From positions 1 through 34,962 of the forward strand of contig JAAUZZ010000001.1 in NCBI GenBank assembly GCA_014804345.1: DNA of 34,962 nt. The letters run 5' to 3'. Numbering within the stretch: position 1 is the stretch's first letter; each line of letters opens with the position of its first letter. The DNA is from Lachnospiraceae bacterium (GTDB lineage: Bacteria; Bacillota; Clostridia; Lachnospirales; Lachnospiraceae). Positions 3,111-32,835 of this stretch are shown here, in pieces. The notes beneath the pieces are model-generated. The model ran no database searches, was not told the origin of the DNA, and was given only the letters and a program-made list of their open reading frames with translations. The position numbers and the translations under genes were made by a program.

Positions 3111-4290
3111 ATGAGAAAACGAAAATTAATTAAAAATACGATTGCAACAATAATTAAATATTTTGTATTTGTGATAATTGGGTTTGTAACGCCCAAATTG
3201 ATTATACAATACTATGGTTCGGCAGTAAATGGATTAGTTAACTCTATAACACAGTTTTGGGGTTATATATCACTTTTGGATATGGAAGTGGGCACTGTAG
3301 TTGCAAGTTCGTTATATGTTCCTTTAGCAAGAAAAGATGATGCAGAAGTTAGCCGGATTGTTGTTTCTTGCAATCGATTTTACAAAAAATTGCTTTAATA
3401 CTGTTGGTATATAGCATTATAGTAATGTTTCTATATCCTTTTTTAATTGGCAATGAATTTGGCTTTTGGTATATCGCAAGTTTGGTATTCACCCTTGCAT
3501 CAAATACATTTATGCAATATTCTTTTGGTTGGACGTGGATGATATTATTAGTAGCTGATCAAAAGGCATATGTGAAGTACTGTATTGAAACATTTATTGC
3601 GTTTATTAATCTGTTGCTTACTGTGTTTTTGATTCAAAAAGGGTTTTCAATACAAGCTGTAAAGTTGGCAGCTGCGGTAGTATTTATTGCAAAACCGTTT
3701 CTTTTGTCTGTTTACGTAAAAAGAAATTATAATATTGATAGAAAAATAAAGTTAAATGGTGAGCCAATGTTTCAAATGAAATCTTTCTTTAAAAGGATTA
3801 TTACGCTTAAGAGGCTAAAAAGGAACAATGATTATGATGCATGCATTAGCTTTATGGATAGCGCGAATATTGCTAATATTTTAACAGGGAAACGGCACTG
3901 TAAAACGATTGTTTCTGTGAGAAATACACTTTCTCAAAGCCGTTCAAAAGAATATAAATATATTGTAAATCCTATTGCAAAGCTGCTTTATTCACATACA
4001 GATAAGGTGATTGCGCTTTCAAAGGGGACGGAGTGGGACTTGAAGGAGAACCTTGGAGTTCCTGAAAAAAACTTGCAACAATTTATAATGGATACAATTT
4101 TGATTTGATTGTCTGGGAAAAAGTGTGATGCTGGTGAGCCTCTTGAAAAAGAGGAAAAGCTTTTGTCAGAGGCGATGATTTTACTTAAAGAAGATCCGAA
4201 ATTAAGGGAAAAGTATAGAAAAAATCTAAAAAAAGGGCAATGGGTTTTGATATTGGACAAGTTGTCGGACAATGGATTGATTTATGCTGA
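3111..4290 (+). pseudogene. Chimeric remnant: Wzx-like flippase front joined to GT4 glycosyltransferase pieces
   Basis: The first part (3111 to about 3765) reads as the N-terminal half of a polysaccharide flippase, with VTPKLIIQYYGSAVNGLVNS. It changes frame at the A6 run at 3384-3389, where one more A would restore FYKKIALILLVY. At about 3766 the same frame passes directly into the middle of a GT4 glycosyltransferase (DYDACISFMDSANIANIL), a clear paralogue of the intact gene at 23238-24437. A second frameshift near 4076 is revealed by TIYNGYNFDLI in the alternative frame, matching TIYNGYSIDTI of the intact gene. The catalytic C-terminal half is missing, and only a GT4-like tail remains, ending MGFDIGQVVGQWIDLC at 4287 after another frame change. 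No product from this stretch should be functional; the intact flippase at 25272 probably replaces it. Confidence 0.85.
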
Positions 4291-4332
4291 TTATATTTCA
4301 GAAAGAATTATGTTAGTAAATTACATCGCTTC

Positions 4333-4544
4333 AGCAATGAAAAGAGAAAAGAATATGTCGGAAAAAAATTGGTGAATAGTATATTATTCCATTACTTGGT
4401 GCGTGGGACAGTCCGAATAAAATCAATTTTGATGAACTTACATTTTATTATGAATCAAGTTTGGCAGATTTTAGACTGAAATCATTGGGAATTAAACTAG
4501 GAGATTATATTAAAATACAGGAAGCTCATATTGAGAAAAAATGA
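4333..4544 (+). pseudogene. Remnant of a TupA-like ATP-grasp protein
   Basis: Reading across two frames gives KRKEYVGKK, then IGE-stop-YIIPLLGAWDSP and NKINFDEL. This resembles the conserved VREYV-KKIGEEYLIPLLGVWDS region of TupA-like ATP-grasp proteins common in capsule loci. The change of frame falls in the A7 run at 4362-4368, and the stop at 4377-4379 is one base from a Glu codon (GAG to TAG). After FDEL the similarity ends and about 35 unrelated residues run to a TGA at 4542. The family match is from memory of the motif. The stretch is clearly non-functional. Confidence 0.6.
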
Positions 4545-12901: not shown

Positions 12902-14197
12902 ATGAAGAAAGTATATACTTGTTTTTGTACGGATGTGATACACGAAGGACATCTGAATATTTTGCAGGAAGCAAAGAAATATGGTGACGTGATTGTAGGA
13001 ATTTTAAGTGATGCGGCTATGATTAAATTTAACAGATATCCCACCGTCACGATTGCAGAAAGAAAGAAAATTGTGGAAGACACAGGATTTGTAGATGAAA
13101 TTGTCATTCAGGATGAAGTCATGTATGACAGCATAATAGCGCAGGTGAAGCCAGATTATGTGATTCATGGAGATAACTGGTGTTCAGGACCTGAACGCGC
13201 TATCCGCCAGAATGTAATCGACAATTTGAAAAAGTACGGTGGTGAGCTGATTGAAGTCGGCTATACGTACAATGAGAATGTCAAAAAAATTGATGATAAC
13301 ATCAAGGAAAAGCTTGCGATGCCGGAATACAGAAGAAAGCGTCTGCGTCAGCTTTTAAAGATTTGCCCTGTTGTAAAAACAATTGAAGTGCATAGCGGAC
13401 TTACGGGGTTAATTGCGGAGAAGACTGTCGTGGAGCATAATGGCGAGTTGAATCAGTTTGATGCGATGTGGCTCTCAAGTCTCTGTGACTCCACTGCAAA
13501 GGGAAAGCCCGATATAGAACTGGTCGACATGTCTTCAAGAATGCGTACGATTGATGATGTGATGGAGGTTACAACAAAACCGATCATTCTCGACGGCGAT
13601 ACAGGTGGACTTGTGGAGCATTTTGTGTATAATGTGCGCACCTTGGAACGCATGGGCGTGTCGGCAGTGATTATCGAGGATAAGACTGGATTAAAGAAAA
13701 ATTCCCTGTTTGGAACAGAGGTTGAACAGACACAGGATTCGATTGAGAATTTCTGCAATAAAATCCGTGCCGGAAAGAATGCACAGCGGACAGAAGAATT
13801 TATGATTATTGCGCGTATTGAGAGTCTGATTCTGGAAAAAGGGCAGGAAGATGCACTAGAACGTGCGTTTGCATATGTTGATGCGGGTGCAGATGCCATT
13901 ATGATTCATTCCAGAAAAAAATCGCCGGATGAAATTTTTGCGTTTTGCGACTCGTTTCGGAAAAAAGACAGCGATACGCCGATAGTTGTCGTGCCGACTT
14001 CATTTAACAGTGTAACGGAGGAGGAGCTTGCGTCGCATGGCGTGAAAATTGTAATCTATGCAAATCAACTTACGAGAAGCGCTTTTCCGGCGATGCAGGG
14101 TACGGCAGTGGAAATCCTCAAAAACCACAGAGCATTGGAGGTTGACTCCAAACTGATGCCGTTTAAGGAAATTATCACATTGATTGATGATATGTAA
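12902..14197 (+). CDS. pepM: Phosphoenolpyruvate mutase with N-terminal cytidylyltransferase-like domain
   Basis: A 431-residue two-domain protein. Residues 1-135 are a TagD-type nucleotidyltransferase fold with the HEGH form of the HxGH motif at 14-17. Residues about 140-431 are PEP mutase of the isocitrate lyase superfamily: DAMWLSSLCDSTAKGKPD, DGDTGG at 231-236, and the diagnostic EDKTGLKKNS at 259-268, which distinguishes true mutases from related lyases. It converts phosphoenolpyruvate to phosphonopyruvate, the entry step to C-P compounds. The decarboxylase that pulls this unfavourable reaction is at 19522. The N-terminal domain seems to lack the ISSTT-like C-terminal nucleotide-binding motif (IEVGYTYNENVK sits where I would expect it), so its activity is uncertain. 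The mutase assignment is firm; the role of the front domain is not. Confidence 0.95.
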   Translation: MKKVYTCFCTDVIHEGHLNILQEAKKYGDVIVGILSDAAMIKFNRYPTVTIAERKKIVEDTGFVDEIVIQDEVMYDSIIAQVKPDYVIHGDNWCSGPERAIRQNVIDNLKKYGGELIEVGYTYNENVKKIDDNIKEKLAMPEYRRKRLRQLLKICPVVKTIEVHSGLTGLIAEKTVVEHNGELNQFDAMWLSSLCDSTAKGKPDIELVDMSSRMRTIDDVMEVTTKPIILDGDTGGLVEHFVYNVRTLERMGVSAVIIEDKTGLKKNSLFGTEVEQTQDSIENFCNKIRAGKNAQRTEEFMIIARIESLILEKGQEDALERAFAYVDAGADAIMIHSRKKSPDEIFAFCDSFRKKDSDTPIVVVPTSFNSVTEEELASHGVKIVIYANQLTRSAFPAMQGTAVEILKNHRALEVDSKLMPFKEIITLIDDM

Positions 14198-14216
14198 AAA
14201 TAAAAAGGGAAAAAGA

Positions 14217-14927
14217 ATGAGTAAAGAAATCGGAATTATTATGGCGGCAGGGCTTGGAACAAGAATGCGCCCGTTGACCGAAAAAAAACCAAAACCACTT
14301 GTAAAAGTGTATGGAAAACCGTTAATTGAAACTGTGATAGAGGGACTGCGCAGAAGAAAGGTTGCAGATATTTATGTTGTTGTGGGATATCTGAAAGAAC
14401 AGTTTTTATATCTTACAGACAAATATAAAAATTTACACATTATAGAAAATCCGGACTATCTTGTCAAGAACAATATCTCTTCTGTCTATGCGGTAAAAAA
14501 AGTTTTGGGAACGGCAGATTGTTTTATCTGTGAGGCGGACTTGTTAATCTCCGATTTATCTGTTTTTGAGAAAGAATTGCCATGTTCGGGTTATTTTGGG
14601 AAGATGGTGAACGGTTATTCTGATGATTGGGTGTTTGAGCTGTTAAACGGCTATATTTCCAAAGTGGGAAAAGGTGGTACGGATGTTTATAATATGGTAG
14701 GCATTTCATTTTTTAAGAAAGCGGATGCCAAAGTTTTGGCAGATGCAATCAAGCAGGCGTATGCAAAAGAAGAAAATGCAAATCTGTATTGGGATGAAGT
14801 AGTAGACCAAAACCTTGATAAACTTCGGCTCAAAGTCTGGCAGGTGGAAAAGGGGCAGATTGTGGAGATTGATACGGTAGAAGAGCTTATATTAATTGAT
14901 CCTGCAGCTTTGGCGGAAAACTCCTGA
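14217..14927 (+). CDS. pntC: Nucleotidyltransferase, probable CTP:2-aminoethylphosphonate cytidylyltransferase (PntC/LicC-like)
   Basis: A 236-residue cytoplasmic enzyme with the nucleotidyltransferase signature AAGLGTRMRPLTEKKPKPLV near the start, a CEADLLI metal/substrate segment, and YWDEVVDQ and VEIDTVEEL in the C-terminal third, as in LicC-type phosphocholine cytidylyltransferases. PntC enzymes of this fold activate 2-aminoethylphosphonate to CMP-AEP. Placement between PEP mutase and the CDP-glycerol-transferase-like fusion makes that substrate the best guess, but the sequence alone does not exclude phosphocholine or a sugar phosphate. The ATG at 14217 follows AAAAGGGA and lies 19 bases after the previous stop. 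Confidence 0.8.
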   Translation: MSKEIGIIMAAGLGTRMRPLTEKKPKPLVKVYGKPLIETVIEGLRRRKVADIYVVVGYLKEQFLYLTDKYKNLHIIENPDYLVKNNISSVYAVKKVLGTADCFICEADLLISDLSVFEKELPCSGYFGKMVNGYSDDWVFELLNGYISKVGKGGTDVYNMVGISFFKKADAKVLADAIKQAYAKEENANLYWDEVVDQNLDKLRLKVWQVEKGQIVEIDTVEELILIDPAALAENS

Positions 14928-14964
14928 CAGGGGAGTGAAACGATATAAAAAGGAATACCATAAT

Positions 14965-16047
14965 ATGAAAGAAAGAAATTTGATTCATATTGAACTTATA
15001 AGAATAATAGCGGCCTTTCTTGTAATATTCAATCATACAGGAGACAAAGGATTTTTTCTTTATTCAACATATGAATTTGGAGGAATACAATTTTGGATAA
15101 CATTAATCATGTCAATATTCTGTAAGGTTGCTGTGCCACTGTTTTTTATGATGTCAGGAGCATTATTGCTGGAGAAGGAGTATTCGCTAAAAACGATATG
15201 GCTGAATAAGATAACCAAAATAATTTTTGTGTTGGTTGTATTTTCTGCTTTTTATTATATAAGGTATCATCTATTGGGATTAATACCAGAAATTAGTGTG
15301 AAAAGGTTTTTTGTGAGATTATATAAAGGAAGTATCCAGCTGTCTTTTTGGTATTTATATGCCTATTTGGCAATGCTGATGAGCATTCCCTTTTTGAAAA
15401 GTATTGCTAAAAATCTGTCAAATACTACCTTCTTGTATTTAATTGGAATATACTTTGTCTATATATCCGTGTTTCCATGTCTGGAGTTTTTTTTGTGGGA
15501 AGGTGATGGTTCAATTGATTCAAATATTCGGGTTGATTGGATTCTAAGTAATATTGTGTTATATCCGATAGTGGGATATTATCTTGAAAATAAAATTGAT
15601 ATCGATAAAGTTCAAAGAAAGAATATTATTGCAATATGGGCGATTAGTATTTTAGGATTAGCCGCTGCCTGCGGCATGACATATTATAAACAAAAAATAA
15701 CAGGATTACTTTCAGAGGCTGATTCACAGGCGTTTCATAATTCCTTTATTTTATTTCCTTGTATGGCTATTTATATTACGATAAAGTATATTTGTTCCAA
15801 GGTGCATATTCCGGCTCTTTTGTATAAAACAATTTCATCAATAGGCGCTTGTACGTTTGGAATATATTTGATACACGGTGCAATATTAGGAAGTAAGTTT
15901 GCTTCAAAGTTCTGGAATTTTTTAGAAAATGAAATTCACATGAATCGTATGGTGATGCCATTTCTTTTTTCATTTCTTGTATTTTGTATAGGGTATATCA
16001 TAACATTGATATTGAAGAAAGCGCCAATTATTAGAAGATTGATTTAG
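14965..16047 (+). CDS. Acyltransferase-3 family membrane protein (second copy)
   Basis: A 360-residue protein with about ten membrane segments. LIHIELIRIIAAFLVIFNHT carries the conserved AT3 histidine at 24, and VPLFFMMSGALLL at about 66-78 is the second family hallmark. It probably O-acetylates (or otherwise acylates) a sugar of the glycan made here. Its position inside the phosphonate module, 37 bases after the cytidylyltransferase gene, suggests cotranscription. Whether it acts on the AEP-bearing unit is unknown. AAAAAGGA lies 11 bases before the ATG; an in-frame start further upstream would overlap the previous gene. Confidence 0.85.
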   Translation: MKERNLIHIELIRIIAAFLVIFNHTGDKGFFLYSTYEFGGIQFWITLIMSIFCKVAVPLFFMMSGALLLEKEYSLKTIWLNKITKIIFVLVVFSAFYYIRYHLLGLIPEISVKRFFVRLYKGSIQLSFWYLYAYLAMLMSIPFLKSIAKNLSNTTFLYLIGIYFVYISVFPCLEFFLWEGDGSIDSNIRVDWILSNIVLYPIVGYYLENKIDIDKVQRKNIIAIWAISILGLAAACGMTYYKQKITGLLSEADSQAFHNSFILFPCMAIYITIKYICSKVHIPALLYKTISSIGACTFGIYLIHGAILGSKFASKFWNFLENEIHMNRMVMPFLFSFLVFCIGYIITLILKKAPIIRRLI

Positions 16048-16130: not shown

Positions 16131-18032
16131 ATGGAAATTTTATATAATGCTTTTGAAGTAGTTATGAACGGCTGCTATTGGCTTTGTAAAAATTACGGAG
16201 TGGCGATCATACTCTTTACACTTATTAGCAAGATTGTGTTGTTGCCTGTATCTGTATGGGTACAGAAAAATTCAATCAAAATGGTAAAGATGCAGCCGGA
16301 AATCAATTTTATCATGGTAAAGCGCTTTGGTGATAAAGATACGATTGCGGAGGAACAGGCAGCAGTTTATAAGCGGGAAAAGTATCACCCAATGGCATCC
16401 ATCTTTCCACTGATCATCCAGCTTGTTCTGTTGATGTGTGTGATAGAAGTAATCAAGCGTGGAATGAATAATCCTGCGATTGATATGGGCTTTGCAGGGA
16501 TTGATTTGAGTCTGGTGCCAAGTGTGGAAGGGATAAACCTGATCTGGTCACCGATTGTGGCGGGGGTTTCTGCATGGCTTTTATGTGTAGCACAGAATGC
16601 AAGTAATGTGCTGCAATCAGAGCAGTCAAATCTGAATAAATACGGGCTGATGGCATTTTCCGTAGGGCTTTCGCTTTATCTGGGATGGTTTGTATCCGTG
16701 GGTGTGGCGCTTTATTGGACTGCGAGTAATGTTTTTGCAATCATCCAGCTTTACCTTTTAAACTGGGTCATTAATCCAAAAAAATATGTGGATTACGAAG
16801 CATTGGAACAGAGCAAGAAAGAACTTGAAAAACTGGGCAGTATCGGTGGAAAACGCAGGCGCTTCAATGACCCGGATGCAAAACGGGAAAGACAGGATTA
16901 TAAAAAATTCTTTTCTGTTGTCAACAAACATCTGGTGTTCTATTCAGAAAGCAGCGGATTTTATAAATATTATAAAGGTTTTATAGACTATCTGTTAGAC
17001 AACACGAACTTAGTGATCCATTACATTACAAGTGATCCGAATGATATGATTTTTGAACTTGCAAAAGAGAAGACGCAGCTTAGACCGTATTATATTGGTG
17101 AGAAGCGGCTGATAACGCTCATGATGAAGCTTGAGGCGGATATGATGGTGATGACGATGCCCGATCTTGAGAATTATCACATTAAGCGCAGTTATATTGA
17201 CAAAAATATCGAATATGTGAGTGTGCGGCATGAAATGGACAGCCTCAATCTCACATATCGTACCGGTGCCTTGGATCATTACGATACGATATTTTGTACC
17301 GGAAAGCATCAGAAGGAAGAGATGGAAAAGACAGAGGAGGCGTACGGACTTCCTAAAAAAACGCTGGTTGAGTGTGGCTATCCGCTTCTTGACGAGATGC
17401 GCGCAGATTATGAAAAACGAAACATTTCCGCGCATCAAAAAAAGCGCATTTTGATAGCGCCATCCTGGCAGGAAGGCAATATTGTTGACAGCTGCCTTGA
17501 AAAACTGCTTGATAATTTAAAGGGAGAGGGGTATGATATAACCGTACGTCCGCATCCGCAGCATGTGCGCCACAGAGCGGAATTTATGGAGTATCTCAAA
17601 AAACAGTATGAACAGGAGGAAGATATTGAGATACAGACAGATTTCTCTTCAAACAGTACTGTATTTGAGGCGGATCTTGTGATTACCGACTGGTCAAGCA
17701 TTGCATACGAATATGCGTATACGACGAGAAAACCTGTGCTTTTTATCAATACGCCGATGAAAGTGATGAATCCGGAGTATCAAAAAATCGATACGGTTCC
17801 GATCAATATTCTGATCCGTGAGGAACTTGGATGCTCTCTGGATGTGGACGAGCTTGACAAGCTTTCCGGCAGTGTGAAGACGCTTTTGGAGCATAGCAGT
17901 GAATATTATGAAAAAATCGGACATTTTGTAGACGAATATGTATACAATCTTGGCACAAGTGCAGAAGTGGGCGCAAAATACATTATTTCACAGATACAAA
18001 AAAGAATTCAAGAGAAGAAAAAGGAGAAGTAG
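16131..18032 (+). CDS. YidC/Oxa1 insertase domain fused to CDP-glycerol glycerophosphotransferase-like domain
   Basis: A 633-residue fusion. Residues about 1-215 match YidC: NYGVAIILFTLISKIVLLPV, then KMQPEI, YHPMASIFPLIIQ at 85-97 (the YidC NPLAGCLPLLIQ region), and a final segment with LYWTASN at 194-200. The groove Arg of YidC appears replaced by Lys34. A basic linker (about 222-262) leads to a TagB/TagF-like domain at about 263-625: SVRHEMDS with His367 in place of the usual WHG, APSWQ at 443, RPHP at 473-476 and ITDWSSIAYEY at 518-528. YidC C-termini face the cytoplasm, so the transferase would sit on the inner leaflet. Family members move glycerol-phosphate from CDP-glycerol; here CMP-AEP is the likely donor (inference). 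GGGAG precedes the ATG; the next gene starts one base after the stop. Confidence 0.92.
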   Translation: MEILYNAFEVVMNGCYWLCKNYGVAIILFTLISKIVLLPVSVWVQKNSIKMVKMQPEINFIMVKRFGDKDTIAEEQAAVYKREKYHPMASIFPLIIQLVLLMCVIEVIKRGMNNPAIDMGFAGIDLSLVPSVEGINLIWSPIVAGVSAWLLCVAQNASNVLQSEQSNLNKYGLMAFSVGLSLYLGWFVSVGVALYWTASNVFAIIQLYLLNWVINPKKYVDYEALEQSKKELEKLGSIGGKRRRFNDPDAKRERQDYKKFFSVVNKHLVFYSESSGFYKYYKGFIDYLLDNTNLVIHYITSDPNDMIFELAKEKTQLRPYYIGEKRLITLMMKLEADMMVMTMPDLENYHIKRSYIDKNIEYVSVRHEMDSLNLTYRTGALDHYDTIFCTGKHQKEEMEKTEEAYGLPKKTLVECGYPLLDEMRADYEKRNISAHQKKRILIAPSWQEGNIVDSCLEKLLDNLKGEGYDITVRPHPQHVRHRAEFMEYLKKQYEQEEDIEIQTDFSSNSTVFEADLVITDWSSIAYEYAYTTRKPVLFINTPMKVMNPEYQKIDTVPINILIREELGCSLDVDELDKLSGSVKTLLEHSSEYYEKIGHFVDEYVYNLGTSAEVGAKYIISQIQKRIQEKKKEK

Positions 18033-18033
18033 T

Positions 18034-18294
18034 ATGAAAAAAGGAATTTTCAAGATAGCAGGCGTCGGATACTTCGGTTTGTGTGCAATGCTTTTGTTTG
18101 GTGCAAATTCTCAGGCATATATCGACCCGTCTGTGGCAACATATGCCATTCAAGCAGTTGCCGGTATTGTCATCGCAGTTGGAGCGGCAGTCGGAATTTA
18201 TTTTAGAAGAGCGAAGAAGAAAATCAATGATACGCTTGGTATTGATGAGAATAAAAATAAAGAAGTGGAATCGGACGATATCATTGTAAAATAG
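18034..18294 (+). CDS. Small two-segment membrane protein with AYIDPSVATY motif
   Basis: An 86-residue protein. A hydrophobic stretch at about 8-24 ends in a signal-peptidase-like NSQA site at about 25-28. AYIDPSVATY at 28-37 follows, then a glycine/alanine-rich membrane segment at about 38-57, a basic RRAKKK stop-transfer run, and a charged tail. The start is one base after the stop of the YidC fusion and its AAGGAG site lies inside that gene, so the two are tightly coupled and may form a complex. I recall similar short YIDPS proteins in other Firmicute surface-glycan loci, without a known function. A terminator-like hairpin begins six bases after its stop. Confidence 0.85.
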   Translation: MKKGIFKIAGVGYFGLCAMLLFGANSQAYIDPSVATYAIQAVAGIVIAVGAAVGIYFRRAKKKINDTLGIDENKNKEVESDDIIVK

Positions 18295-18376: not shown

Positions 18377-19504
18377 ATGGAAATCAAAAGAAATATTTTA
18401 TTAAATCCCGGACCGGCAACGACGACGGATACAGTAAAGATGGCACAGGTGGTTCCCGATATCTGCCCGCGGGAGAAGGAATTTGCATCCATGATGAAGA
18501 AGATGCGTGAGGACTTGGTGCGTATTGTACATGGTGATCCAAACAAATATACCTCCGTATTGTTCTGCGGTTCGGGAACGATTAATATTGATGTCTGCAT
18601 CAATTCGCTTTTGCCGGAAGGGAAAAAAGTTCTGATTATCAACAACGGCGCTTACAGCACGAGGGCGGCAGAAATCTGTGCATACTACAATCTGCCGTTT
18701 ATTGATTTGAAATTTCCTGTAGATGAATTGCCGGATTTGGCAAAAGTGGAGCGGGTGCTGCAGGAAAATCCCGATATCGCGCTTGTTCATACAACACACA
18801 ATGAGACAGGCACGGGCATCTTGAATCCCATACGGGAGATTGGCGCTCTTGTACACAAATATAACGCAGTATTTACTGTGGATACGACATCGACATACGC
18901 CATGCGTCCGATTGATATTGAGAAGGATAACATTGATTTTTGTATGGCATCTGCACAAAAGGGACTTATGGCGATGACAGGGTTGTCCTTTATTATAGGA
19001 AATACACAAATCATAGGGGAATCGGCAAACTATCCGAAACGTTCTTACTATTGCAATTTGTACTTACAGTATCACTTTTTTGAAACAACGGGAGAGATGC
19101 ATTTTACGCCACCCGTTCAGACGATTTACGCCACCAGACAGGCGCTTGATGAATATTTTGCGGAGGGCGAGGAGGCAAAATGGCAGAGGCATCTGGAGGT
19201 ATTTGAGGCGATTCATGCGGGGCTTGAAAAACTTGGCTTTCAGGATATCATCAAGAGAGAATTACAGGCAGGACTTGTCGTGTCGGTAAAATATCCCAAT
19301 GATGAAAACTGGGATTTTGAAAAAGTACATGACTATTGTTATGAACGCGGGTTTACCATATATCCCGGAAAAGTATCGACACAAAATACGTTTCGGCTTT
19401 GTGCGCTTGGAGCAATTACATCAAAGGACATTGAGGAATTTTTTGTCGTTTTGGAGGAGGCGCTCAGAACGTATCACATTCAGATACCGATTCGTTATGA
19501 ATAA
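18377..19504 (+). CDS. phnW: 2-aminoethylphosphonate:pyruvate aminotransferase type, class V PLP enzyme
   Basis: A 375-residue fold-type I aminotransferase. ILLNPGPATTTDTVK at the N-terminus and REKEF are characteristic of the PhnW/AEP transaminase group. FTVDTTS places Asp169 under the PLP ring nitrogen and ASAQKGLM places the Schiff-base lysine at 195. In a biosynthetic setting it aminates phosphonoacetaldehyde to 2-aminoethylphosphonate. The enzyme is reversible and also serves catabolism, but no phosphonatase gene is present, and PEP mutase and phosphonopyruvate decarboxylase flank it, so synthesis is the clear reading. GGAAGGAG at about 18355-18362 supports the ATG. The decarboxylase gene follows after 17 bases. 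Confidence 0.92.
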   Translation: MEIKRNILLNPGPATTTDTVKMAQVVPDICPREKEFASMMKKMREDLVRIVHGDPNKYTSVLFCGSGTINIDVCINSLLPEGKKVLIINNGAYSTRAAEICAYYNLPFIDLKFPVDELPDLAKVERVLQENPDIALVHTTHNETGTGILNPIREIGALVHKYNAVFTVDTTSTYAMRPIDIEKDNIDFCMASAQKGLMAMTGLSFIIGNTQIIGESANYPKRSYYCNLYLQYHFFETTGEMHFTPPVQTIYATRQALDEYFAEGEEAKWQRHLEVFEAIHAGLEKLGFQDIIKRELQAGLVVSVKYPNDENWDFEKVHDYCYERGFTIYPGKVSTQNTFRLCALGAITSKDIEEFFVVLEEALRTYHIQIPIRYE

Positions 19505-19521: not shown

Positions 19522-20649
19522 ATGAAAGCAAGTGTTTTTTTACAGGAAGTAAAGAATATTGGAATTCGTACCATTACGGGGGTGCCGGATTCTACTTTGA
19601 AACAGTTCTGTGATGCAGTCAGGATGGATAACGGAAAAGAATTTCAACATTATGTGACGGCAAATGAGGGTGCGGCTGTTGGTCTTGCCACGGGCGAGTA
19701 TCTGGCATCAGAGCGCCCGTGTCTAGTGTATCTGCAGAATTCAGGACTTGGAAATATTATCAATCCGTTAGCATCCATTGCCAATAGTGAGGTATATGGC
19801 ATTCCGATGCTGTTTGTGATTGGATGGCGTGGGGAGCCGGGAAAGAAAGATGAACCCCAGCACATTTATCAGGGGAAAGTAACGTGTGAGCTTTTAGAGA
19901 TTATGGATGTGCCGTATTCTGTGGTTGACGATATGACTACTCAGGATCAGATGAAAGAGATATTGTTAAAAGCAAAAGAACTGATGAATGAGAACGAACA
20001 GTATGCGATTATCGTTAAAAAAGGAACATTTGAGAAAGAGAAGGAATTTGCTTGGGAGAATGGTTACAGTCTTGTGCGTGAGCAGGCATTAAGAGTCATT
20101 TTGGAGAATGTCTATCAGGATTCATTCATTGTTTCCACCACCGGAAAGATATCAAGAGAGCTTTATGAACAGAGTGATGCGTTATATAAAAATCACGAAA
20201 GGTTGTTTATGACAGTCGGCGGCATGGGACATGCGTCAATGATTGCGTATGGAATGGCTCAAGCGGATGCGTCAAAACAGATTATCTGTGTTGATGGCGA
20301 CGGAGCGGTGATGATGCATATGGGGGCGTTGGCATTTCTTGCGAAGCAGTCACCTGAAAATCTTCTGCATATTGTGATCAATAATGCAGCACACGAATCG
20401 GTCGGCTCTATGCCCACAGGTTTTAGCGGACAGACGTATGCGCAGATTGCGGCAGCATGCGGATACAAGAACACATGCACGGTCACGACAGACGAGGATT
20501 TAAGGATTGCTATTTTGGAGGCAAAAAAGAAACGGGAACTGTCATTGATCGAGGTGATGGTATCCCTTGACGCAAGAGCGGATTTGGGGAGACCTAAGGA
20601 AAGCGCTAAGGAAAACAGAATTGATTTCATGAATGCGGTTTTGCGATAG
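19522..20649 (+). CDS. ppd: Phosphonopyruvate decarboxylase
   Basis: A 375-residue thiamine-diphosphate enzyme. ITGVPDSTLKQFCD at about 18-31 and NEGAAVGLATG with Glu49 mark the PYR domain. GDGAVMMHMGAL at 259-270 and INNAAHESVGSMPTG at about 286-300 give the ThDP/Mg GDG-to-NN motif and the phosphonopyruvate-decarboxylase-specific region. It converts phosphonopyruvate to phosphonoacetaldehyde and makes the PEP mutase step effectively irreversible. Length is typical of single-chain Ppd/Fom2 proteins. GGGAGGTC precedes the ATG. Its 3' end overlaps the convergent signal peptidase gene by 23 bases. Confidence 0.93.
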   Translation: MKASVFLQEVKNIGIRTITGVPDSTLKQFCDAVRMDNGKEFQHYVTANEGAAVGLATGEYLASERPCLVYLQNSGLGNIINPLASIANSEVYGIPMLFVIGWRGEPGKKDEPQHIYQGKVTCELLEIMDVPYSVVDDMTTQDQMKEILLKAKELMNENEQYAIIVKKGTFEKEKEFAWENGYSLVREQALRVILENVYQDSFIVSTTGKISRELYEQSDALYKNHERLFMTVGGMGHASMIAYGMAQADASKQIICVDGDGAVMMHMGALAFLAKQSPENLLHIVINNAAHESVGSMPTGFSGQTYAQIAAACGYKNTCTVTTDEDLRIAILEAKKKRELSLIEVMVSLDARADLGRPKESAKENRIDFMNAVLR

Positions 20650-21118
20650 TTGCAACAGGGCGGTTTGGAATAAGCCGCCCTATAATATTTTCAAGTCTGA
20701 CACAACCGATTTCTTCATACCTGCTGTCTTTGCTCAGCGTATGATTATCACCCATCACAAAAAATAGGTCATCACCGATTAAAAGCTTGTTGGATGCAAT
20801 GCCGCTAAAATCCACATTACCGTTTACATGTGGACTTTTAACGCCGTCCACAATCACATCTCCGTCTGAAATCAGAATCGTTTCACCAGGTATTGCGATG
20901 ATGCGTTTTACCATTGTACACTTGAGCGCAGGACAGTAAAAGACAATTACATCGCCGCATTGAAAATTTGTGGCGCGACGGTCTATCATGGTAAGCTGCA
21001 TATTTTTATAGGCCGGATACATGGATTCGCCCTGAATGAGATTTAGCTGATAAAGATTCTGTGAAATATACAGGGCAATTAAAAGTGTGGAAAGTATAAT
21101 AATAAATTTTTTTCGCAT
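20627..21118 (-). CDS. lepB: Type I signal peptidase
   Basis: A 163-residue membrane-anchored serine protease with one N-terminal membrane segment (about 4-20). IQGESMYPAY places the catalytic Ser at 32, MVKRIIAIPGE places the catalytic Lys at 71, and MGDNHTLSKDSRYEEIG supplies the GDN-SxDSR box. Such enzymes remove signal peptides from exported proteins. It stands alone, convergent with the decarboxylase and divergent from the promoter at 21248. Its last 20 or so residues (GRLIPNRP and beyond) are encoded by the hairpin at 20657, which may be an extension of an ordinary C-terminus. A broken paralogue lies at 29459-29922. Confidence 0.9.
   Translation of the reverse strand: MRKKFIIILSTLLIALYISQNLYQLNLIQGESMYPAYKNMQLTMIDRRATNFQCGDVIVFYCPALKCTMVKRIIAIPGETILISDGDVIVDGVKSPHVNGNVDFSGIASNKLLIGDDLFFVMGDNHTLSKDSRYEEIGCVRLENIIGRLIPNRPVATIAKPHS
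20657..20691 (+). terminator. Hairpin terminator, second copy of the repeated 25-base unit
   Basis: AGGGCGGTTT pairs with AAGCCGCCCT around GGAAT (20657-20681), a ten-pair stem followed by ATAATATTTT. It lies eight bases after the decarboxylase stop and should end the phosphonate transcript. On the minus strand it is coding sequence of the signal peptidase. Confidence 0.7.
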
Positions 21119-23237: not shown

Positions 23238-24437
23238 ATGAGCAAAAAAAGAAAAAAAAAGAAAATTTTATTTGTGATATCAACTTTAACCGGTGGAGGC
23301 GCGGAAAGAACGCTTTGCAATATAACCTGCGGATTGCCCGATGATGTTATGGCAGATATTTTAATTAATTATGAAACGGAACAGGATTATCCGCACAAAG
23401 GAAATGTTATTTCTCTAGGAATGCCAAAGAGAAAGAAATTTTCATTAGGATATCAGTTTGTTACGGTAATACGAAGGTATATTCGTCTTAGACAGTTAAA
23501 AGCGCAAGGTGGGTATGATGCATGCATTAGTTTTATGGACAGCGCTAACATTGCTAACGTTCTGTCGGGAAAAAAGCATTGTAAGGTGATTTTGTCCGAG
23601 CGGATTAATCTTTCTTCCTGCACTTCGGCAGGCTATCGCTATATTGTAGGACCACTTGCAAAGCTGCTGTATCCGAGAGCGAATTATATGGTTTCTCTGT
23701 CAAAAGGGGTTGAGGCAGATCTGATTGAGAATTATAACCTGCCAAAGAAATGTGCGGTAACAATATATAATGGGTATAGTATAGATACGATACAAAAAAA
23801 AGCGCAGGAACCTAGTGCCATAGAGATAGAAAAGGACAAATTTTACTTTATTTCGGTTGGGAGGTTGTGCGAGCAGAAAGGACAATGGCATTTGATTAAG
23901 GCCTTTCGCGAAGTTGTAAAAAAACACCCGCAAAGCCGCCTGATCATATGCGGAAAAGGACCTTATCTGCCTATGTTGGAGCAGATGGCACAGAAATATG
24001 GATTATCGGATTATGTGATTTTCGCCGGATTTCAGAAAAACCCATATGCCATTGCCGCAAAATGTAATGTATTTGTGTTTCCATCCAATTATGAAGGATT
24101 TGGCAGTGCTATGATTGAGAATATGGCATGTGGATTGCCGGTGATTTCTACAGATTACCGTTCCGGCGCGAGGGAGATTTTGGCACCAGATACGGACTTC
24201 CGAATGCAGCAGCTGGAAACCATTGAACGAGCTGAATATGGAATACTGGTTCCTGTCTGCAAAAGTTCAATTGAGATGTCAGGAGAGGAAAATGAACCAG
24301 AGGAAAATCTCCTTGCTAATGCGATGAACATTTTGATTGAGGAGGAACAGACTTATAATCAATATAAAGAACTTTCTTTAAAGCGAGCTAAAGAATTTTC
24401 GATAGAGCGTACGGTTGAAAAATGGCTTAGTTTGTAG
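23238..24437 (+). CDS. GT4-family glycosyltransferase, intact counterpart of the 3766-4290 fragment
   Basis: A 399-residue GT-B-fold enzyme. A lysine/arginine-rich start leads into ILFVISTLTGGGAERT, the usual N-terminal loop of this GT4 branch. SVGRLCEQKGQWHLI, ICGKGPYL and SNYEGFGSAMIENMACG (about 284-300), with the E-x7-E pair, mark the donor-binding half. It likely adds one sugar of the repeat unit. GYDACISFMDSANIAN at about 94-109 is almost identical to the degraded copy at 3830-3880. The gene lies 28 bases after the amidotransferase. Confidence 0.9.
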   Translation: MSKKRKKKKILFVISTLTGGGAERTLCNITCGLPDDVMADILINYETEQDYPHKGNVISLGMPKRKKFSLGYQFVTVIRRYIRLRQLKAQGGYDACISFMDSANIANVLSGKKHCKVILSERINLSSCTSAGYRYIVGPLAKLLYPRANYMVSLSKGVEADLIENYNLPKKCAVTIYNGYSIDTIQKKAQEPSAIEIEKDKFYFISVGRLCEQKGQWHLIKAFREVVKKHPQSRLIICGKGPYLPMLEQMAQKYGLSDYVIFAGFQKNPYAIAAKCNVFVFPSNYEGFGSAMIENMACGLPVISTDYRSGAREILAPDTDFRMQQLETIERAEYGILVPVCKSSIEMSGEENEPEENLLANAMNILIEEEQTYNQYKELSLKRAKEFSIERTVEKWLSL

Positions 24438-25271: not shown

Positions 25272-26582
25272 TTGAAGGTTTTTATAAATAGGATATGTGA
25301 AGTAGTAAAAAAAGATCTATTCATTAATACTATGTTCAGTTTAATGGGAAAAGCGGCAGCGATGGTACTTTTTCTGCTTGCAGATATTTTTTGTGCCAGA
25401 CTGCTGACGGAAGATGAATATGGGGAATGGAATTTTTTTTATGCAATAGCCACGATGTTTTTTTGGATTGTAGGGTTTGGAATTAGCGCTTCTACCAGAG
25501 TGTATGCAGCGAAAGCGCGGGAGGATAAAAGATTATTAAGGCAGTATGTGAATTCCGGTTTTCTGCTAAGAGTGCTTGTAACAGTTTTATTTATTCCGGT
25601 TTTGCTCCTTTTGAGGGCGTTGTTTACAGGCAGGCTGGGATATCCGGATAAATATCCTAATTTAATGCTTTTGATGTTGTTGGGGATTGTAATTGTTGCG
25701 TTAAATACATTTAATGAGCTGTTTAAAGATTTATTTATTGCTACTGTTAAGTTTGCAAACATGTTTTGGATTAACATAGCAGAGTATGGCGGATATTTGG
25801 TATGGGGCATCCTTGGAATTATGTTAATCGGCAACAATACAGGTATTGCATTAGGATATATAGTTGCGTTACTGCAATGTGTGGTACTACAGTGGATTTT
25901 ATTATATAAGGATGACATACAAATCAATTTAAAAAAATATGTAAAAAAACAATATGTTACGACAATTTTTCACTACGCAATGCCAATATTGGTTCTAAGT
26001 TTTGGCGCTTTGGTATTGACAGAGATGGATACTTTCATGATTGGAATTTTCTGTCCACCGTCTGAAGCGGGGACTTATTCTGTTGCGAAAAAAATGTTAT
26101 CTAAAATTTCGCATATCAATTTTGCCATTTGTTCAAGCACAATGACACAGTTTGTGTTAATCAATAAGGAAAATTTTACTCATAAAAGAAAGCTTTATCA
26201 TAAAGTAGTGGGGATGAATCTGATGCTGACAATTGCAATATCAGCGGGACTGTTTTTACTGGGTCCATGGGGGATTACCCTGTTGTATGGGGAACGTTAT
26301 GCGGAGGCTGGGATGGTACTTCGGGCATTGGTACCATACTATTTTATGTATGGCACGGCACTGTTCTTTGCAACATTGTTAGATTATCAGGAAAAGGCTA
26401 AGACGCGTTCCTATTTATATATGGTAATGGTAGTGTTAAATTTAATTTTAAATTATGTGTTAATACCGCGGTATGGCGCGGTTGGTGCGGCTGCGGCAAC
26501 AGTAGTAGCGATGATGCCATATTATTTAGGGCTGATTATACAAGCCCACTTAATTTTTGTACGGATTCAGTCAGCCAAATAG
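25272..26582 (+). CDS. Wzx-type polysaccharide flippase (MATE/MVF-like)
   Basis: A 436-residue protein with about twelve membrane segments. LFINTMFSLMGKAAAMVLF at the N-terminus, LLTEDEYGEWNFFYAIATM, and LYGERYAEAGMVLRALVPYYF in the second half match oligosaccharide-unit translocases. It would flip the lipid-linked repeat unit across the membrane. The start is a TTG at 25272 with GGATGGGA upstream; the first ATG (25332) would cut off the start of the first membrane region. It is intact, unlike the flippase fragment at 3111, so it is probably the working exporter for this locus. Confidence 0.88.
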   Translation: MKVFINRICEVVKKDLFINTMFSLMGKAAAMVLFLLADIFCARLLTEDEYGEWNFFYAIATMFFWIVGFGISASTRVYAAKAREDKRLLRQYVNSGFLLRVLVTVLFIPVLLLLRALFTGRLGYPDKYPNLMLLMLLGIVIVALNTFNELFKDLFIATVKFANMFWINIAEYGGYLVWGILGIMLIGNNTGIALGYIVALLQCVVLQWILLYKDDIQINLKKYVKKQYVTTIFHYAMPILVLSFGALVLTEMDTFMIGIFCPPSEAGTYSVAKKMLSKISHINFAICSSTMTQFVLINKENFTHKRKLYHKVVGMNLMLTIAISAGLFLLGPWGITLLYGERYAEAGMVLRALVPYYFMYGTALFFATLLDYQEKAKTRSYLYMVMVVLNLILNYVLIPRYGAVGAAAATVVAMMPYYLGLIIQAHLIFVRIQSAK

Positions 26583-26799: not shown

Positions 26800-26839
26800 A
26801 AAGAACCCTTATTAAGCCATAACAAAATAGGGGTTCTTT
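26800..26839 (+). terminator. Hairpin at the left IS end
   Basis: AAAGAACCCTTATT and AATAGGGGTTCTTT form a stem of about 13-14 pairs, followed by TTTCT on the + strand. It overlaps the last codons of the transposase and would stop transcription entering the IS from the left. Confidence 0.5.
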
Positions 26840-28237
26840 TTCTGTATAAGGATATAGTTATTATTAACAGACTTGGAAGGGGAGTTTTTCCACCTCCACA
26901 TTGCCAGCTTTTTCAGATTCATGGCAGCAAATTTAAGCCTTACCCACATACTTACCCTTTTCAGCTCGCGGTACGGCGTGTATCTCATCCCATATTTCTC
27001 TTTTGCATCGGCAAACACCCTCTCTATTGTCCGGGAACGCAGTTTATAGCTTTCCTTTCCCTCCGGCGAATGGCGAATGTCTTCCGCCTGTTCAATATAG
27101 TGTTCCCATATATGGCGGGTGACCGTTTTCTGACAGTTCCGGCTTTCCGTACACAGATGCCGTGTCGGACATGCCTCACACAGATACGGCAGGCTTTTAT
27201 ATTCTCTGTATCCGTTCCTGTTTGTCGTACTGTATGGCAGGCTTTTATACTCCGGACAGATCACAATGTCCAGATGCTCATCATACACATATTTATACCA
27301 TTCATGAAATCCTTTCTTCGTCATTGGGCGCTTATAAGGCAGGGAAGGCACTCTTGCGTCATCTATGACACGTTTGCAGATCCAAGGTGTTTTATATCCT
27401 GCATCCATTGTGACGGTCTTTATTTCGGGAAAACGCCGTGTCACTCTTTCATAAAGTGCGTCAAAGGCGACGCTGTCATGTATGTTTCCGGCAGTAACTA
27501 CCGTGTCAAGTATGAAATTATGTCTGTCACATACAGTGTGGGCTTCATAAGCGAAACATCTTTTGTGCTCCCCCTTGTGGAACATTCCGCTTTCAGGGTC
27601 TGTTACGGACACTGTGATTTCCTTATGTTTTGGATCTGCATCTCCCGTTCCTCCGTCAAACGGCTTTTTCCCATGTGCCACCCTGTCTTCATTGATCTCT
27701 TTCATAAGCAGTTCTTCATAAGTTCTGGCGGCTGCCGGTATCGCTCTTTTCATTTTCTTATTGATGTTGGCATTCGCTTTGATATGCGTGCCGTCTATAA
27801 ATACAACTTCAGGGGAAAGATAACCGCTTCTCTGTGCTTCAAAAAGGATCCATGTAAAAACCTTTTCAATGGTGTCTTCTGTAAAACGGTGCCGGAAGTT
27901 ATAGCTGACTGTTGCGAAATGGGGAATGGGTTCGTTTAAAAGATACCCTAGAAACCACCGATAGGCGACATTCATACGGATATCCTCAACAGTGCGGCGT
28001 AAAGAAGGGATGCCGTAAAGATGCTGGATAAGGACCATCTTAAACAGGACCACGGGATCGACGCTGGGACGTCCGTTATCCGTACAATAAAGTTCTTCCA
28101 CGAAATCGTATATATGTGTAAAATCTATGGCGCTGTCAATTTTACGCAATAGATGGTCTTGTGGAACAAGTCCTTCCACGCTTACTAGTTCCAAAGTATT
28201 TCTTTCTGATTTTTCTTTTTTCAGCTGGTTTTGCCAT
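26812..28237 (-). pseudogene. IS1182-family transposase with N-terminal frameshift
   Basis: The main frame (28194 down to 26812, 460 residues from a TTG) is a full DDE transposase: NGRPSVDPVVLFKM, FIDGTHIKANAN with the first Asp, TMDAGYKTPW with the second, and a C-terminal RSRTIERVFADAKEKYGMRY with the Glu. The natural start appears to be the ATG at 28237 (MAKPAEKRKIRKKYFGT), which is out of frame. The expected family sequence YFGTLELVSVEG would need TTGGAACT twice, and only one copy is present at 28187-28194. Loss of one 8-base repeat thus explains the break. The protein could still be made from the TTG, lacking about 19 residues. Confidence 0.75.
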
Positions 28238-28269: not shown

Positions 28270-29432
28270 TAAGTCCGACTGCTGAGCCACGAATTGGAGG
28301 ATTTAGATTACGGACTGCTGTATCAGGCGTACTCTGCCAAAGGCAGAAATCTGGCAGTGGAACCAAAGACCATGTTTAAGATCCTGACCTATGCTTATTC
28401 CCAAAATATATATTCATCCCGAAAAATTGAAACCGCATGCAGACGGGATATCAACTTTATGTGGCTTTTGGCAGGACAAAGGCCCCCGACCATAGCGCTA
28501 TTGCCCGTTTTAGAACAGGTTTTTTGGCAGATGCATGTGGGGACCTGTTTTACCAGATGGCGCGCCGTCTTGCATCAATGGGCGAGCTATCAAAAGAAAC
28601 GGTATTTATCGATGGAACAAAGCTGGAAGCGTGTGCCAATAAGTACACTTTTGTATGGAAGAAATCCGTAGGGAAATGGGAAGAAAAAATGTTTGTGAAG
28701 AGCTTCCTTGACAGACAGCTTCTCTATGACCTGCATCATTCAAGATTTGGCAGCCGCAACAGCTATTCGAAGACGGATGTGGATGCCACATTTATGCACA
28801 TGAAAGATGACCATATGAGAAATGCCCAGTTAAAACTGGGATATAATGTACAGATCGGGATGGACAGTGAATATATCGTCGCGGCAGATGTTTTTCAAGA
28901 CAGGAACGATGTATGGACACTGGTTCCGTTCTTAAAACAGATGGAAGAACACCTTCATTTCCGTTATCCAAGCGTAACAGCCGATTCGGGTTATGAAAGC
29001 GAAGAGGCTTATGATTACCTCAAAAGCCATGACCAGAAGCCATATATCAAACCCCAGACCTATGAAAAATGGAAAAAGAGAAGCTTTAAGAAAGACATCA
29101 GCAAACGGGAAAACATGGAGTATGACGCAGAAAACGATACTTATATCTGACATGCGGGTAAAAGACTGATTCCCCTCTGCATCAAAAAACAGAAAAGCAA
29201 AAACGGCTATGAATCAGATGTGACCATATATGAATGCGCAGACTGTTGCGGATGTCCCTGTAAAGATAAATGCACAAGGGCAAAAGGAAACAAACGACTG
29301 TATGTGTCCAAAAACTTTATAAATCTCCGGCAGAAATCTTACAAAAATATCATGAGTGAAACAGGCATCAGGTATCGAATGAACCGTTCCATTCAGGTAG
29401 AAGGCGCTTTTGGGGTTCTGAAAAACGATTAG
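28270..29432 (+). pseudogene. Second IS1182-like transposase, degraded
   Basis: This reads VRLLSHELEDLDYGLLYQAY at its start, lacking the family N-terminus, which the neighbouring IS removed or separated. A frameshift at the C5 run near 28484 moves from AGQRPP to KAPDHSAIARFR. Further on are FIDGTKLEACANK, VTADSGYESEEAYDYL and, after a nonsense codon at 29148-29150 (NDTYI-stop-HAGKR, probably from TGC), ECADCCGCPCKDKCTRAKGN with clustered cysteines. The frame ends prematurely at GVLKND. It is non-functional and unlike the element at 26790 in sequence. Confidence 0.85.
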
Positions 29433-31423: not shown

Positions 31424-32835
31424 TTAAAATCCTACATATATAAAATCCTGTGCGTCAAAGCCAAAACCATAGGTTCCAAAAGCATAAATAGCCACAATTG
31501 TGCCAAGATAGATTGTCCACCTGATAATCAATGGCTGGGCGATAATCTTTTCCCGAATGCACATTTTACTCTGAAGTGTACTGCTGACAGCCCGAACGCC
31601 GATGGAGGCTGACAGAACTGCCAGTTCTTTCCACGAAAGTCCTAAATTGAAGATTGAATCGTCGAAAAATATCCAAGGATTATAAACCGTGAAAATAGAA
31701 ACAATCATCGACCAAGCGGCATTTAAACTTTCGGCTCTGAAAATAATCCACGCCAGGGTTACCAAGAGGAAGGTAAGAACGCGTCTAATGTGTTTTTTTT
31801 AAAATTGTCCTGTTCAAATCCGAGAGCTTGATAAAGCTTTTCCCTTAGGTTTAATGTCAATTCACCAACGATTTGAGAGAGTGCATGAAAAAGTCCCCAT
31901 ACAATATATTTAAAGCCACTTCCATGCCATACACCGCTCACTATAAACGTTATTATTAAATAAAGATATTTTCTGAACTTACCGTTCCGATTGCCGCCAA
32001 GTGGAATATAAACATAATCTTTTAACCATGAACTTAATGAAATATGCCATCTTCGCCAAAATTCACGAATAGAAGTCGAAAAGTAGGGATGATTGAAATT
32101 GTCAACAAGCTCGATTCCGAATAAAGCAGCGGCTCCTTGTGCTAATGTTACACATGCGAGAAAGTCGGTATACAGTTGAATACTGTACAAAATTCCTGCT
32201 AAAATGACATAGGAACCTTTATACATTTCGTAGTTATCGAAAACCGTATTAACGATAACGGCTGCTTTATCAGCAATCATAAGTTTGAGAAAAAATCCTC
32301 ACAAAAGAAGCAAAAGCCCTTTTACAAACTTCTTTTCATTGAAGCTGTGCCCCTTAAGTAATTGTGAGTTAAGTTGTTTATACCCTGGGATAGGTCCTTG
32401 CAGAATTTGCGGAAAAAAGGATATAAATAAAGCATATTTCAGAAAATTTTTCTGAGGAGATATTTTTCCCAAGTAAACGTCTGATATGTATGCGATCATT
32501 TGCAAAGTAAAAAATGACAGCCCTAATGGAACGATAAAAGTAGTCCTTAAAAGTGTACTTTTGGAGAAAAAAAGAGGAACGACTATCAGTATAATGCATA
32601 TGATGAATGCGCATGTCCGATATATTTTTAATCTCATGCGTTTTATGATATGAGAAGAACAATAAGAAATTATAATCATAGAGAGAAACATTATAATTGA
32701 ATTTGGTGCAGAAATAAGATAAAATATAAAACTACCGGCAAGTAAAGAATACCATCTTAGTCTTTTTGGAAGAATATAATATATTGCAACTGTTATGCAT
32801 AGAAAAATATTATAGTTTAGTGATATAAAATCCAT
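31424..32835 (-). pseudogene. MBOAT O-acyltransferase broken by a nonsense codon and a frameshift
   Basis: Three pieces together make a full AlgI-like protein. The first (32835-32299) has FFPQILQGPIPGYKQL and ends KGLLLLL at an in-frame TGA (32299-32301). The same frame continues GFFLKLMIADKAA, so the TGA replaces what is likely a Trp (TGG). The second carries FWRRWHISLSSWLKDYVYIP and SGVWHGSG with the catalytic-type His. A frameshift in the A8 run (T8 at 31793-31800) then leads to HIRRVLTFLLVTLAWIIFRAES and the C-terminus. Neither lesion alone leaves a working protein. An intact homologue is at 5546-6940. Confidence 0.88.

Follow-up and report, generated by a model that had tools for sequence, protein, structure and literature searches.

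The window analysed here, a stretch of 34,962 nucleotides from a Lachnospiraceae bacterium (contig JAAUZZ010000001.1), contains a set of genes for 2-aminoethylphosphonate (AEP) metabolism, among which lies an ORF that joins a YidC-like to a TagF-like half. The features discussed below are as follows.

12902..14197, + strand: PEP mutase (PepM) with an N-terminal cytidylyltransferase-like domain (TIGR02320, PF13714 and PF01467 above cut-offs)
14184..14927, + strand: nucleotidyltransferase, PntC-like by context (PF00483 and PF12804 above cut-offs)
14896-16047, + strand: acyltransferase, upstream of the fusion
16131..18032, + strand: YidC-TagF-like fusion (single ORF, two Pfam domains above cut-off, kept in relatives)
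16131..16775, + strand: YidC/Oxa1-type half of the fusion, residues 1-215 (60KD_IMP at 22-211; alignment to solved YidC sequences)
16230-16232, + strand: codon of Lys34 (alignment to solved YidC sequences)
16917..18005, + strand: TagF-like half of the fusion, approximately residues 263-625 (PF04464 at 381-604; 16 free-standing relatives align to it from about residue 267 on)
17229..17234, + strand: codons of the invariant His367 (His in 83/83 rows) and of Glu368 (the top pepM-associated column)
18034..18294, + strand: YIDP membrane protein, 86 amino acids (homologue at 88/94 loci; two hydrophobic segments)
18377..19504, + strand: AEP aminotransferase, PhnW/AepZ type (TIGR03301, 467.2 bits over 360.8)
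19522..20649, + strand: phosphonopyruvate decarboxylase (TIGR03297, 445.4 bits over 312.5)
20627..21118, - strand: signal peptidase I-type gene (PF10502, 87.2 over 22.9; TIGR02227, 96.9 over 47)

The fusion and its gene context

The ORF at 16131-18032 is uninterrupted and encodes 633 amino acids. A first-pass annotation had proposed that this one frame contains both a YidC and a TagF-like half, and profile searches bear this out. The YidC part matches the Pfam model 60KD_IMP (residues 22-211, 101.3 bits against a cut-off of 35) and the NCBIfam YidC C-terminal model TIGR03592 (91.2 bits against 84.3), and the transferase part matches the Pfam model Glyphos_transf (PF04464; residues 381-604, 57.4 bits against 22.1). 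No domain beyond these two was found in the Pfam scan of the fusion, LicD (PF04991) being absent. The YidC core (residues 1-215) had also been described as complete, which holds as far as profile coverage and hydropathy go; the latter gives overlapping segments in the places expected for a five-helix core with a cytoplasmic hairpin. As 17 relatives, one of them truncated, align with the fusion at 79-41% identity, it is no assembly accident. Neither a second 60KD_IMP nor a second PF04464 match was found in the window's own assembly, which is 76% complete. Among the open-licence papers searched, we found no published YidC-glycerophosphotransferase fusion; where PMC2175527 mentions YidC and a glycerophosphotransferase, they are separate genes.

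The fusion is present in 16 of the 299 genomes of the window's family, not counting a fragment in genome G255. A scan of a genome collection gave at least 565 stretches encoding a relative, which may include members of the sister subfamily described below, and the best 80 of these were kept. Together with the window and 19 neighbourhoods, and after removal of five duplicates and the G255 fragment, this resulted in a set of 94 loci. In 78 of the 80 named genome loci the match extends from residue 12 or earlier to residue 618 or later of the fusion, the remaining two (L096 and L130) being shorter. Most named loci belong to Lachnospiraceae or further Clostridia, or to Erysipelotrichaceae and related Bacilli; some bins are labelled Saccharibacteria and may be mis-binned.

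The fusion had further been described as adjoining genes for CMP-AEP formation. This is confirmed by PepM (TIGR02320, 413.5 bits against 319.55), the aminotransferase and the decarboxylase, all of which exceed their NCBIfam cut-offs. The PepM frame contains EDKTGLKKNS, which fits the EDKxxxxxNS motif given in PMC6697681. The nucleotidyltransferase encoded at 14184-14927 matched no NCBIfam equivalog above cut-off and, judging from its context, would make CMP-AEP. Several features outside these genes were noted as well. By eye, transposase-like ORFs lie at the downstream edge of the cluster (26812-28194, - strand; 28437-29150, + strand), and two neighbouring ORFs at 31759-32835 (- strand) resemble the halves of one MBOAT-type gene, which looks broken. 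At 3111-4375 (+ strand) there are pieces that seem to come from a broken glycosyltransferase copy, similar to the gene at 23238-24437.

The YidC half and its small membrane partner

In the alignment with solved YidC sequences, Lys34 falls on the position of the YidC groove arginine, as the first-pass annotation had suspected. In the groove column, 76 of the 82 filled rows have Lys and the other 6 have Arg, and hence a positive charge throughout. According to PMC8920935, YidC requires a positively charged groove residue, and a Trp at the position equivalent to Trp196 is discussed together with it; Trp196 is invariant in the 64 aligned rows. The cytoplasmic hairpin region is conserved among relatives as well. 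The idea that both halves have been repurposed is not supported by these findings, and we reject its derivation from Lys34 in the case of the YidC half, as Lys is the usual residue of the family and a conservative one that keeps the charge. Like members of the YidC/Oxa1/Alb3 family, the fusion thus scores above the 60KD_IMP and TIGR03592 cut-offs and has the groove Lys and Trp, but it carries a transferase in place of the C-terminal tail and is encoded in surface-glycan clusters and not with the housekeeping YidC.

The gene for the small YIDP protein starts one base past the stop of the fusion and is preceded by AAGGAG eight bases before its ATG; the adjacent small protein of the first-pass annotation corresponds to the larger ORF 17938-18294 (a 118-amino-acid frame). 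A homologue is encoded in 88 of the 94 loci, in 81 of these 88 within 300 bp of the fusion. In four of the six loci without it (L040, L048, L113 and L130) the contig stops close to the fusion, and the other two (L065 and L068), with flanks of at least 5 kb, look like real absences. All 88 homologues contain the motif Y-[IVL]-D-P (YIDP in 81, YVDP in six and YLDP in one), usually with a Thr or Ser close behind. No NCBIfam model matched the small protein. Its 118-amino-acid frame scored 21.2 bits with the inovirus coat model PF05356, below the cut-off of 23.5, so that assignment to a phage coat or holin family was rejected; it resembles these only in size and layout. Judging from hydropathy and charge, the mature protein would be a single helix that has YIDP on the outside and a tail rich in Lys/Arg on the inside.

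A sister subfamily links this protein to the transferase. Sixteen of the matches in the family genomes cover the transferase half only; these proteins stand alone and have about 415-450 residues (734 in one open frame), and PF04464 was found in all six that were scanned. An N-terminal YIDP element is present in 16/16, in 15 of them as YIDPGTG. Searched against the 94 loci (all 17,034 ORFs in six frames), a profile of these N-termini had as its top three hits the small YIDP proteins encoded at L045, L046 and L047 (E 7e-5 to 5e-4), and a profile-profile comparison of the sister N-termini with the small protein gave a probability of 83% over 38 columns. A profile of the small protein found nothing at E 1e-3 when run against the 16 sister loci, so the link rests on the search in the other direction. 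As the sister subfamily has the YIDP element fused to a relative of the transferase, the small YIDP protein probably serves the transferase as a subunit in trans. The first-pass annotation had regarded the YidC half as a platform that binds the lipid-linked acceptor or the adjacent small protein; what gains support is the second of these partners, from the YIDP gene in 88 of 94 loci and from the YIDP-transferase single chains. PMC7618853 names short proteins of one or two helices, M13 procoat and Pf3 coat among them, as the classic clients that YidC handles independently of Sec. It is for this reason that insertion of the small protein is the role we favour for the YidC half, which most likely inserts the YIDP subunit, holds it, or does both.

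One might instead argue that the transferase works as proposed and that the YidC half lacks insertase function and only anchors the enzyme in the membrane. Contact with the membrane is something that TagF-like enzymes need, and the sister subfamily has a single YIDP helix in place of the YidC half. However, an anchor would need neither Lys or Arg in all 82 groove positions, nor an invariant Trp196 in 64 rows, nor a conserved hairpin region, and the YIDP gene is kept next to the fusion. We therefore regard a pure anchor as unlikely, although it deserves to be kept in mind. It is far less probable that the YIDP protein is itself the acceptor of the headgroup or a covalent relay for it: it is a constant partner and its YxDP motif, invariant in 88/88 homologues, usually has a Thr or Ser nearby, but hydropathy and charge predict the motif on the outer and the transferase on the inner side of the membrane, and in the sister subfamily the element belongs to the enzyme.

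The small protein may in addition be processed. The signal peptidase gene of the window is convergent to the phosphonate cluster, and a homologue occurs in 33 of the 94 loci. By a cut-off of our own, for which L044, L047, L123 and L129 are borderline, 64 of the 88 YIDP homologues have a hydrophobic stretch upstream of the motif and 24 do not, most of the latter starting close before YIDP. A signal peptidase gene accompanies 33 of the 64 with such a signal-like stretch and none of the 24 without it (p 1e-6, uncorrected for kinship), and the peptidase possibly acts on the YIDP precursor.

In L093, L107, L108 and nine other loci, 12 in all, a single ORF encodes the YIDP element, as the N-terminal part, together with a sulfatase-like domain; the element is thus common to two kinds of surface-modifying enzymes. 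Sulfatase-like genes are found in 62 of the 94 loci; of three checked with the Pfam Sulfatase model, two matched. YidC and other insertases have been reported to scramble lipids in vitro (preprint PMC10491306), and together with the frequency of the sulfatase-like genes and the shared ORFs this might point to a YidC half that scrambles the lipid-linked product across the membrane, where LtaS/sulfatase-like partners would use it on the outside. Such a gene was found in 6 of the 14 pepM-linked loci, judged on the fetched flanks, and there was none in the searched part of the window (6001-28100). Moreover, clusters of this kind usually own a flippase, and a Wzx-like gene was recognised by eye at 25272-26582. 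We consider scrambling improbable, and favour a YidC half that inserts or holds the YIDP subunit.

Donor genes and the residue after the catalytic-type histidine

Genes that could supply a donor appear as alternatives across the 94 loci: pepM in 14, a CobD-like gene in 22, a choline kinase gene in 6, CobD-like and kinase genes together in one and none that we recognised in 51. PhnW is encoded in 12/14 and the decarboxylase in 12/14 pepM-linked loci. The fusion is therefore commoner away from pepM than beside it, which, taken literally, is what the first-pass annotation had named as speaking against an AEP transferase. But in 29 of the 80 pepM-less loci there are genes that could plausibly supply another CDP-linked donor, and for this reason we read the survey as describing a family with varied donors rather than as evidence against AEP transfer here. 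In the scanned loci L055, L039, L064, L043 and L102, the CobD-like or kinase domains are joined to a PF12804-type nucleotidyltransferase; a chain of about 604 residues combining this nucleotidyltransferase with a CobD-like PLP protein lies beside Gly-type fusions (with glycine at position 368, see below) at L055:8167-9981, L039:10899-12722 and elsewhere. Because the CobD-like domains score below curated cut-offs, we can only infer the product, perhaps a CDP-linked amino alcohol such as CDP-ethanolamine. In the pepM locus L046, where no PhnW was found, an ORF at 13924-15081 looks by eye like an iron-type alcohol dehydrogenase, and the product there may be hydroxyethylphosphonate rather than AEP.

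Within the family sample, pepM is present in 32 of 299 genomes, in 10 of the 16 with the fusion versus 22 of the 283 others (p 2.5e-7). A survey of the pepM locus took in 31 of these 32 genomes, G129, which scored below the family cut-off, being left out; the fusion is found at the pepM locus in 8, a YIDP-transferase in 3 and neither in 20. LicD is encoded within 10 kb of pepM in 0/8, 1/3 and 9/20 of these, respectively (p 0.029 for 0/8 versus 9/20, with one of the eight fusion-type loci, G251, on a 6.4 kb contig), and the fusion may therefore stand in for LicD.

The catalytic histidines of TagF are H444 and H584. The enzyme of the window has RHE at a site where HG is the usual reading among relatives; this site is placed by its motif and by the alignment of relatives, as the Pfam match begins only at residue 381. 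His367 and the RPH histidine, His475, are each present in 83/83 rows, and by motif and position His367 would be the counterpart of H444. The glycine of the WHG motif is missing in the window, while 58 of the 83 family rows have Gly at residue 368. That RHE replaces WHG and that this matters, as was first suggested from the window sequence, is upheld, since no other column of the alignment is as strongly associated with pepM as 368. Gly is found in 56 of 64 pepM-less but in 2 of 19 pepM-linked fusions (Fisher p 7e-10, the next-best column having p 2e-4; 83 combined rows, without L147 on its short contig), many of the rows being related and the Fisher values ignoring kinship. The pattern was first spotted on 18 aligned fusions. 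Among the 67 rows with adequate flanks (27 excluded), 12 pepM-linked fusions are non-Gly and 2 Gly, versus 8 non-Gly and 45 Gly among the pepM-less ones (p 1.4e-6). It recurred in 17 newly fetched loci (20 neighbourhoods from 24 new genomes, minus three duplicates), some of them mutually close and a few short-flanked, where 5/5 pepM-linked fusions are non-Gly and 12/12 pepM-less ones Gly. Kinship was taken into account with independent pairs on a tree for which the motif columns had been removed: of 10 pairs, 7.5 go the same way and 0.1 the opposite way (median p 0.016). With L067 and L131 scored as pepM-linked, a reassignment made after their residues were known, this becomes 8.7 of 11 (p 0.004). 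In L067, a pepM cluster lies about 13.6 kb downstream on the same contig; the contig of L131 ends inside a PhnW gene, and its likely remainder, on another contig, is beside pepM.

The association has exceptions. Gly occurs in the pepM-linked L063 and L079 and in L085, next to a PhnW gene where the contig ends, and L084, L087, L090 and L115 are non-Gly in genomes in which no pepM was found, as are L099, L103, L118 and L126, which stand outside the counts for their short flanks. A strict rule, with Gly without pepM and another residue with it, had fitted the window and the first 16 judgeable relatives except L043; it is contradicted by L063, L079 and several of the non-Gly, pepM-less fusions, and was rejected in favour of a strong association only. 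Nor does a rule extend to all relatives, as the YIDP-transferase single chains deviate, having S, A or D when pepM-linked and A or T when linked to choline kinase. The residues that replace Gly368 (E, Y, D, A, S, H or N) have no common chemistry, and for that reason we did not adopt a tie between residue 368 and the amino group of AEP. PMC11666461 counts G480 of CgoT, the Gly that follows the catalytic His, among the key conserved active-site residues that surround docked CDP-glycerol, and states that WHG differs between donor types; on these grounds, residue 368 is a plausible donor determinant. Most likely, the residue after the catalytic-type His marks a switch to phosphonates in many relatives.

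These findings also bear on the possibility that the donor is CDP-glycerol or another ordinary one, that the adjacency of pepM is incidental and that the pepM product goes elsewhere. The founding members of PF04464 use CDP-glycerol, and 80 of the 94 fusion loci lack pepM. Against this stand the residue-368 association, the enrichment of pepM in genomes with the fusion and the genes of the window, in which no CDP-glycerol synthase was recognised and only the N-terminal domain of PepM resembles one, far below cut-off. We give an ordinary donor very little chance. The proposal that the fusion is a candidate AEP transferase is supported by the residue-368 association, upheld as it is in phylogenetically independent pairs, and the AEP reading is strengthened in a modified form, in which AEP transfer would be one branch of a wider headgroup-transferase family.

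A proposed membrane-bound AEP transferase

Starting from the fusion, its gene context, the constant YIDP partner and the residue-368 association, which are observed directly, we propose a model that would assign to them a donor, an acceptor, a side of the membrane and a set of activities. The fusion would be a membrane-bound transferase for CMP-2-aminoethylphosphonate, working with a YIDP subunit that is served by its YidC half. PepM, the decarboxylase and the aminotransferase would make AEP, which the nucleotidyltransferase would activate to CMP-AEP. The TagF-like half, on the cytoplasmic side, would pass AEP to a glycan hydroxyl, probably before this glycan leaves its lipid carrier. As its own task, the YidC half would insert and/or hold the YIDP protein. 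This short helix, its N-terminus facing outward, would be the transferase's membrane subunit, a part that in the sister subfamily belongs to the transferase chain. Relatives of the fusion would use other CDP-linked headgroups. We judge this model as a whole to be reasonably likely, with greater confidence in the donor and less in the role of the YidC half. A more specific version, which we put forward tentatively, is that the YidC core is a dedicated assembly factor for the YIDP protein, at many loci after cleavage by the signal peptidase, that the transferase then uses the helix, and that headgroups vary across the family, the loss of Gly368 reflecting repeated moves to phosphonates.

The proposed enzyme shares features with several known systems. 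It has the Pfam domain and the two catalytic-type histidines of TagF/TarL-type CDP-polyol phosphotransferases (PF04464), but differs from them in its fusion to YidC, in the Glu that replaces the WHG glycine and in its probable donor, a CMP-phosphonate. It would do the same job as the LicD phosphocholine transferases of the Lic-1 pathway, which, according to PMC10434233, transfer a headgroup from a CDP/CMP donor to a glycan; unlike these, the fusion has no LicD domain, and the two did not co-occur within 10 kb of pepM in the eight fusion-type loci. As in the PntC/PepM tailoring clusters of PMC6697681, pepM, the decarboxylase, the aminotransferase and a PF12804 nucleotidyltransferase are found together. 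By contrast, the main text of that paper names LicD-like phosphotransferases and glycosyltransferases, and neither YidC nor TagF appears in it. In the phosphonate literature that we searched, no enzyme was identified that moves AEP from CMP-AEP to surface glycans.

Taken together, although most fusions lie elsewhere, the changes in the active-site motif beside phosphonate genes make the fusion a good candidate for an AEP transferase. This provides a named and conserved candidate for AEP transfer, with a partner that looks required, a diagnostic residue and relatives with other donors for comparison, so that donor choice can be approached by single-residue swaps between relatives. It also suggests a second life of the YidC fold, as the built-in helper of one enzyme complex.
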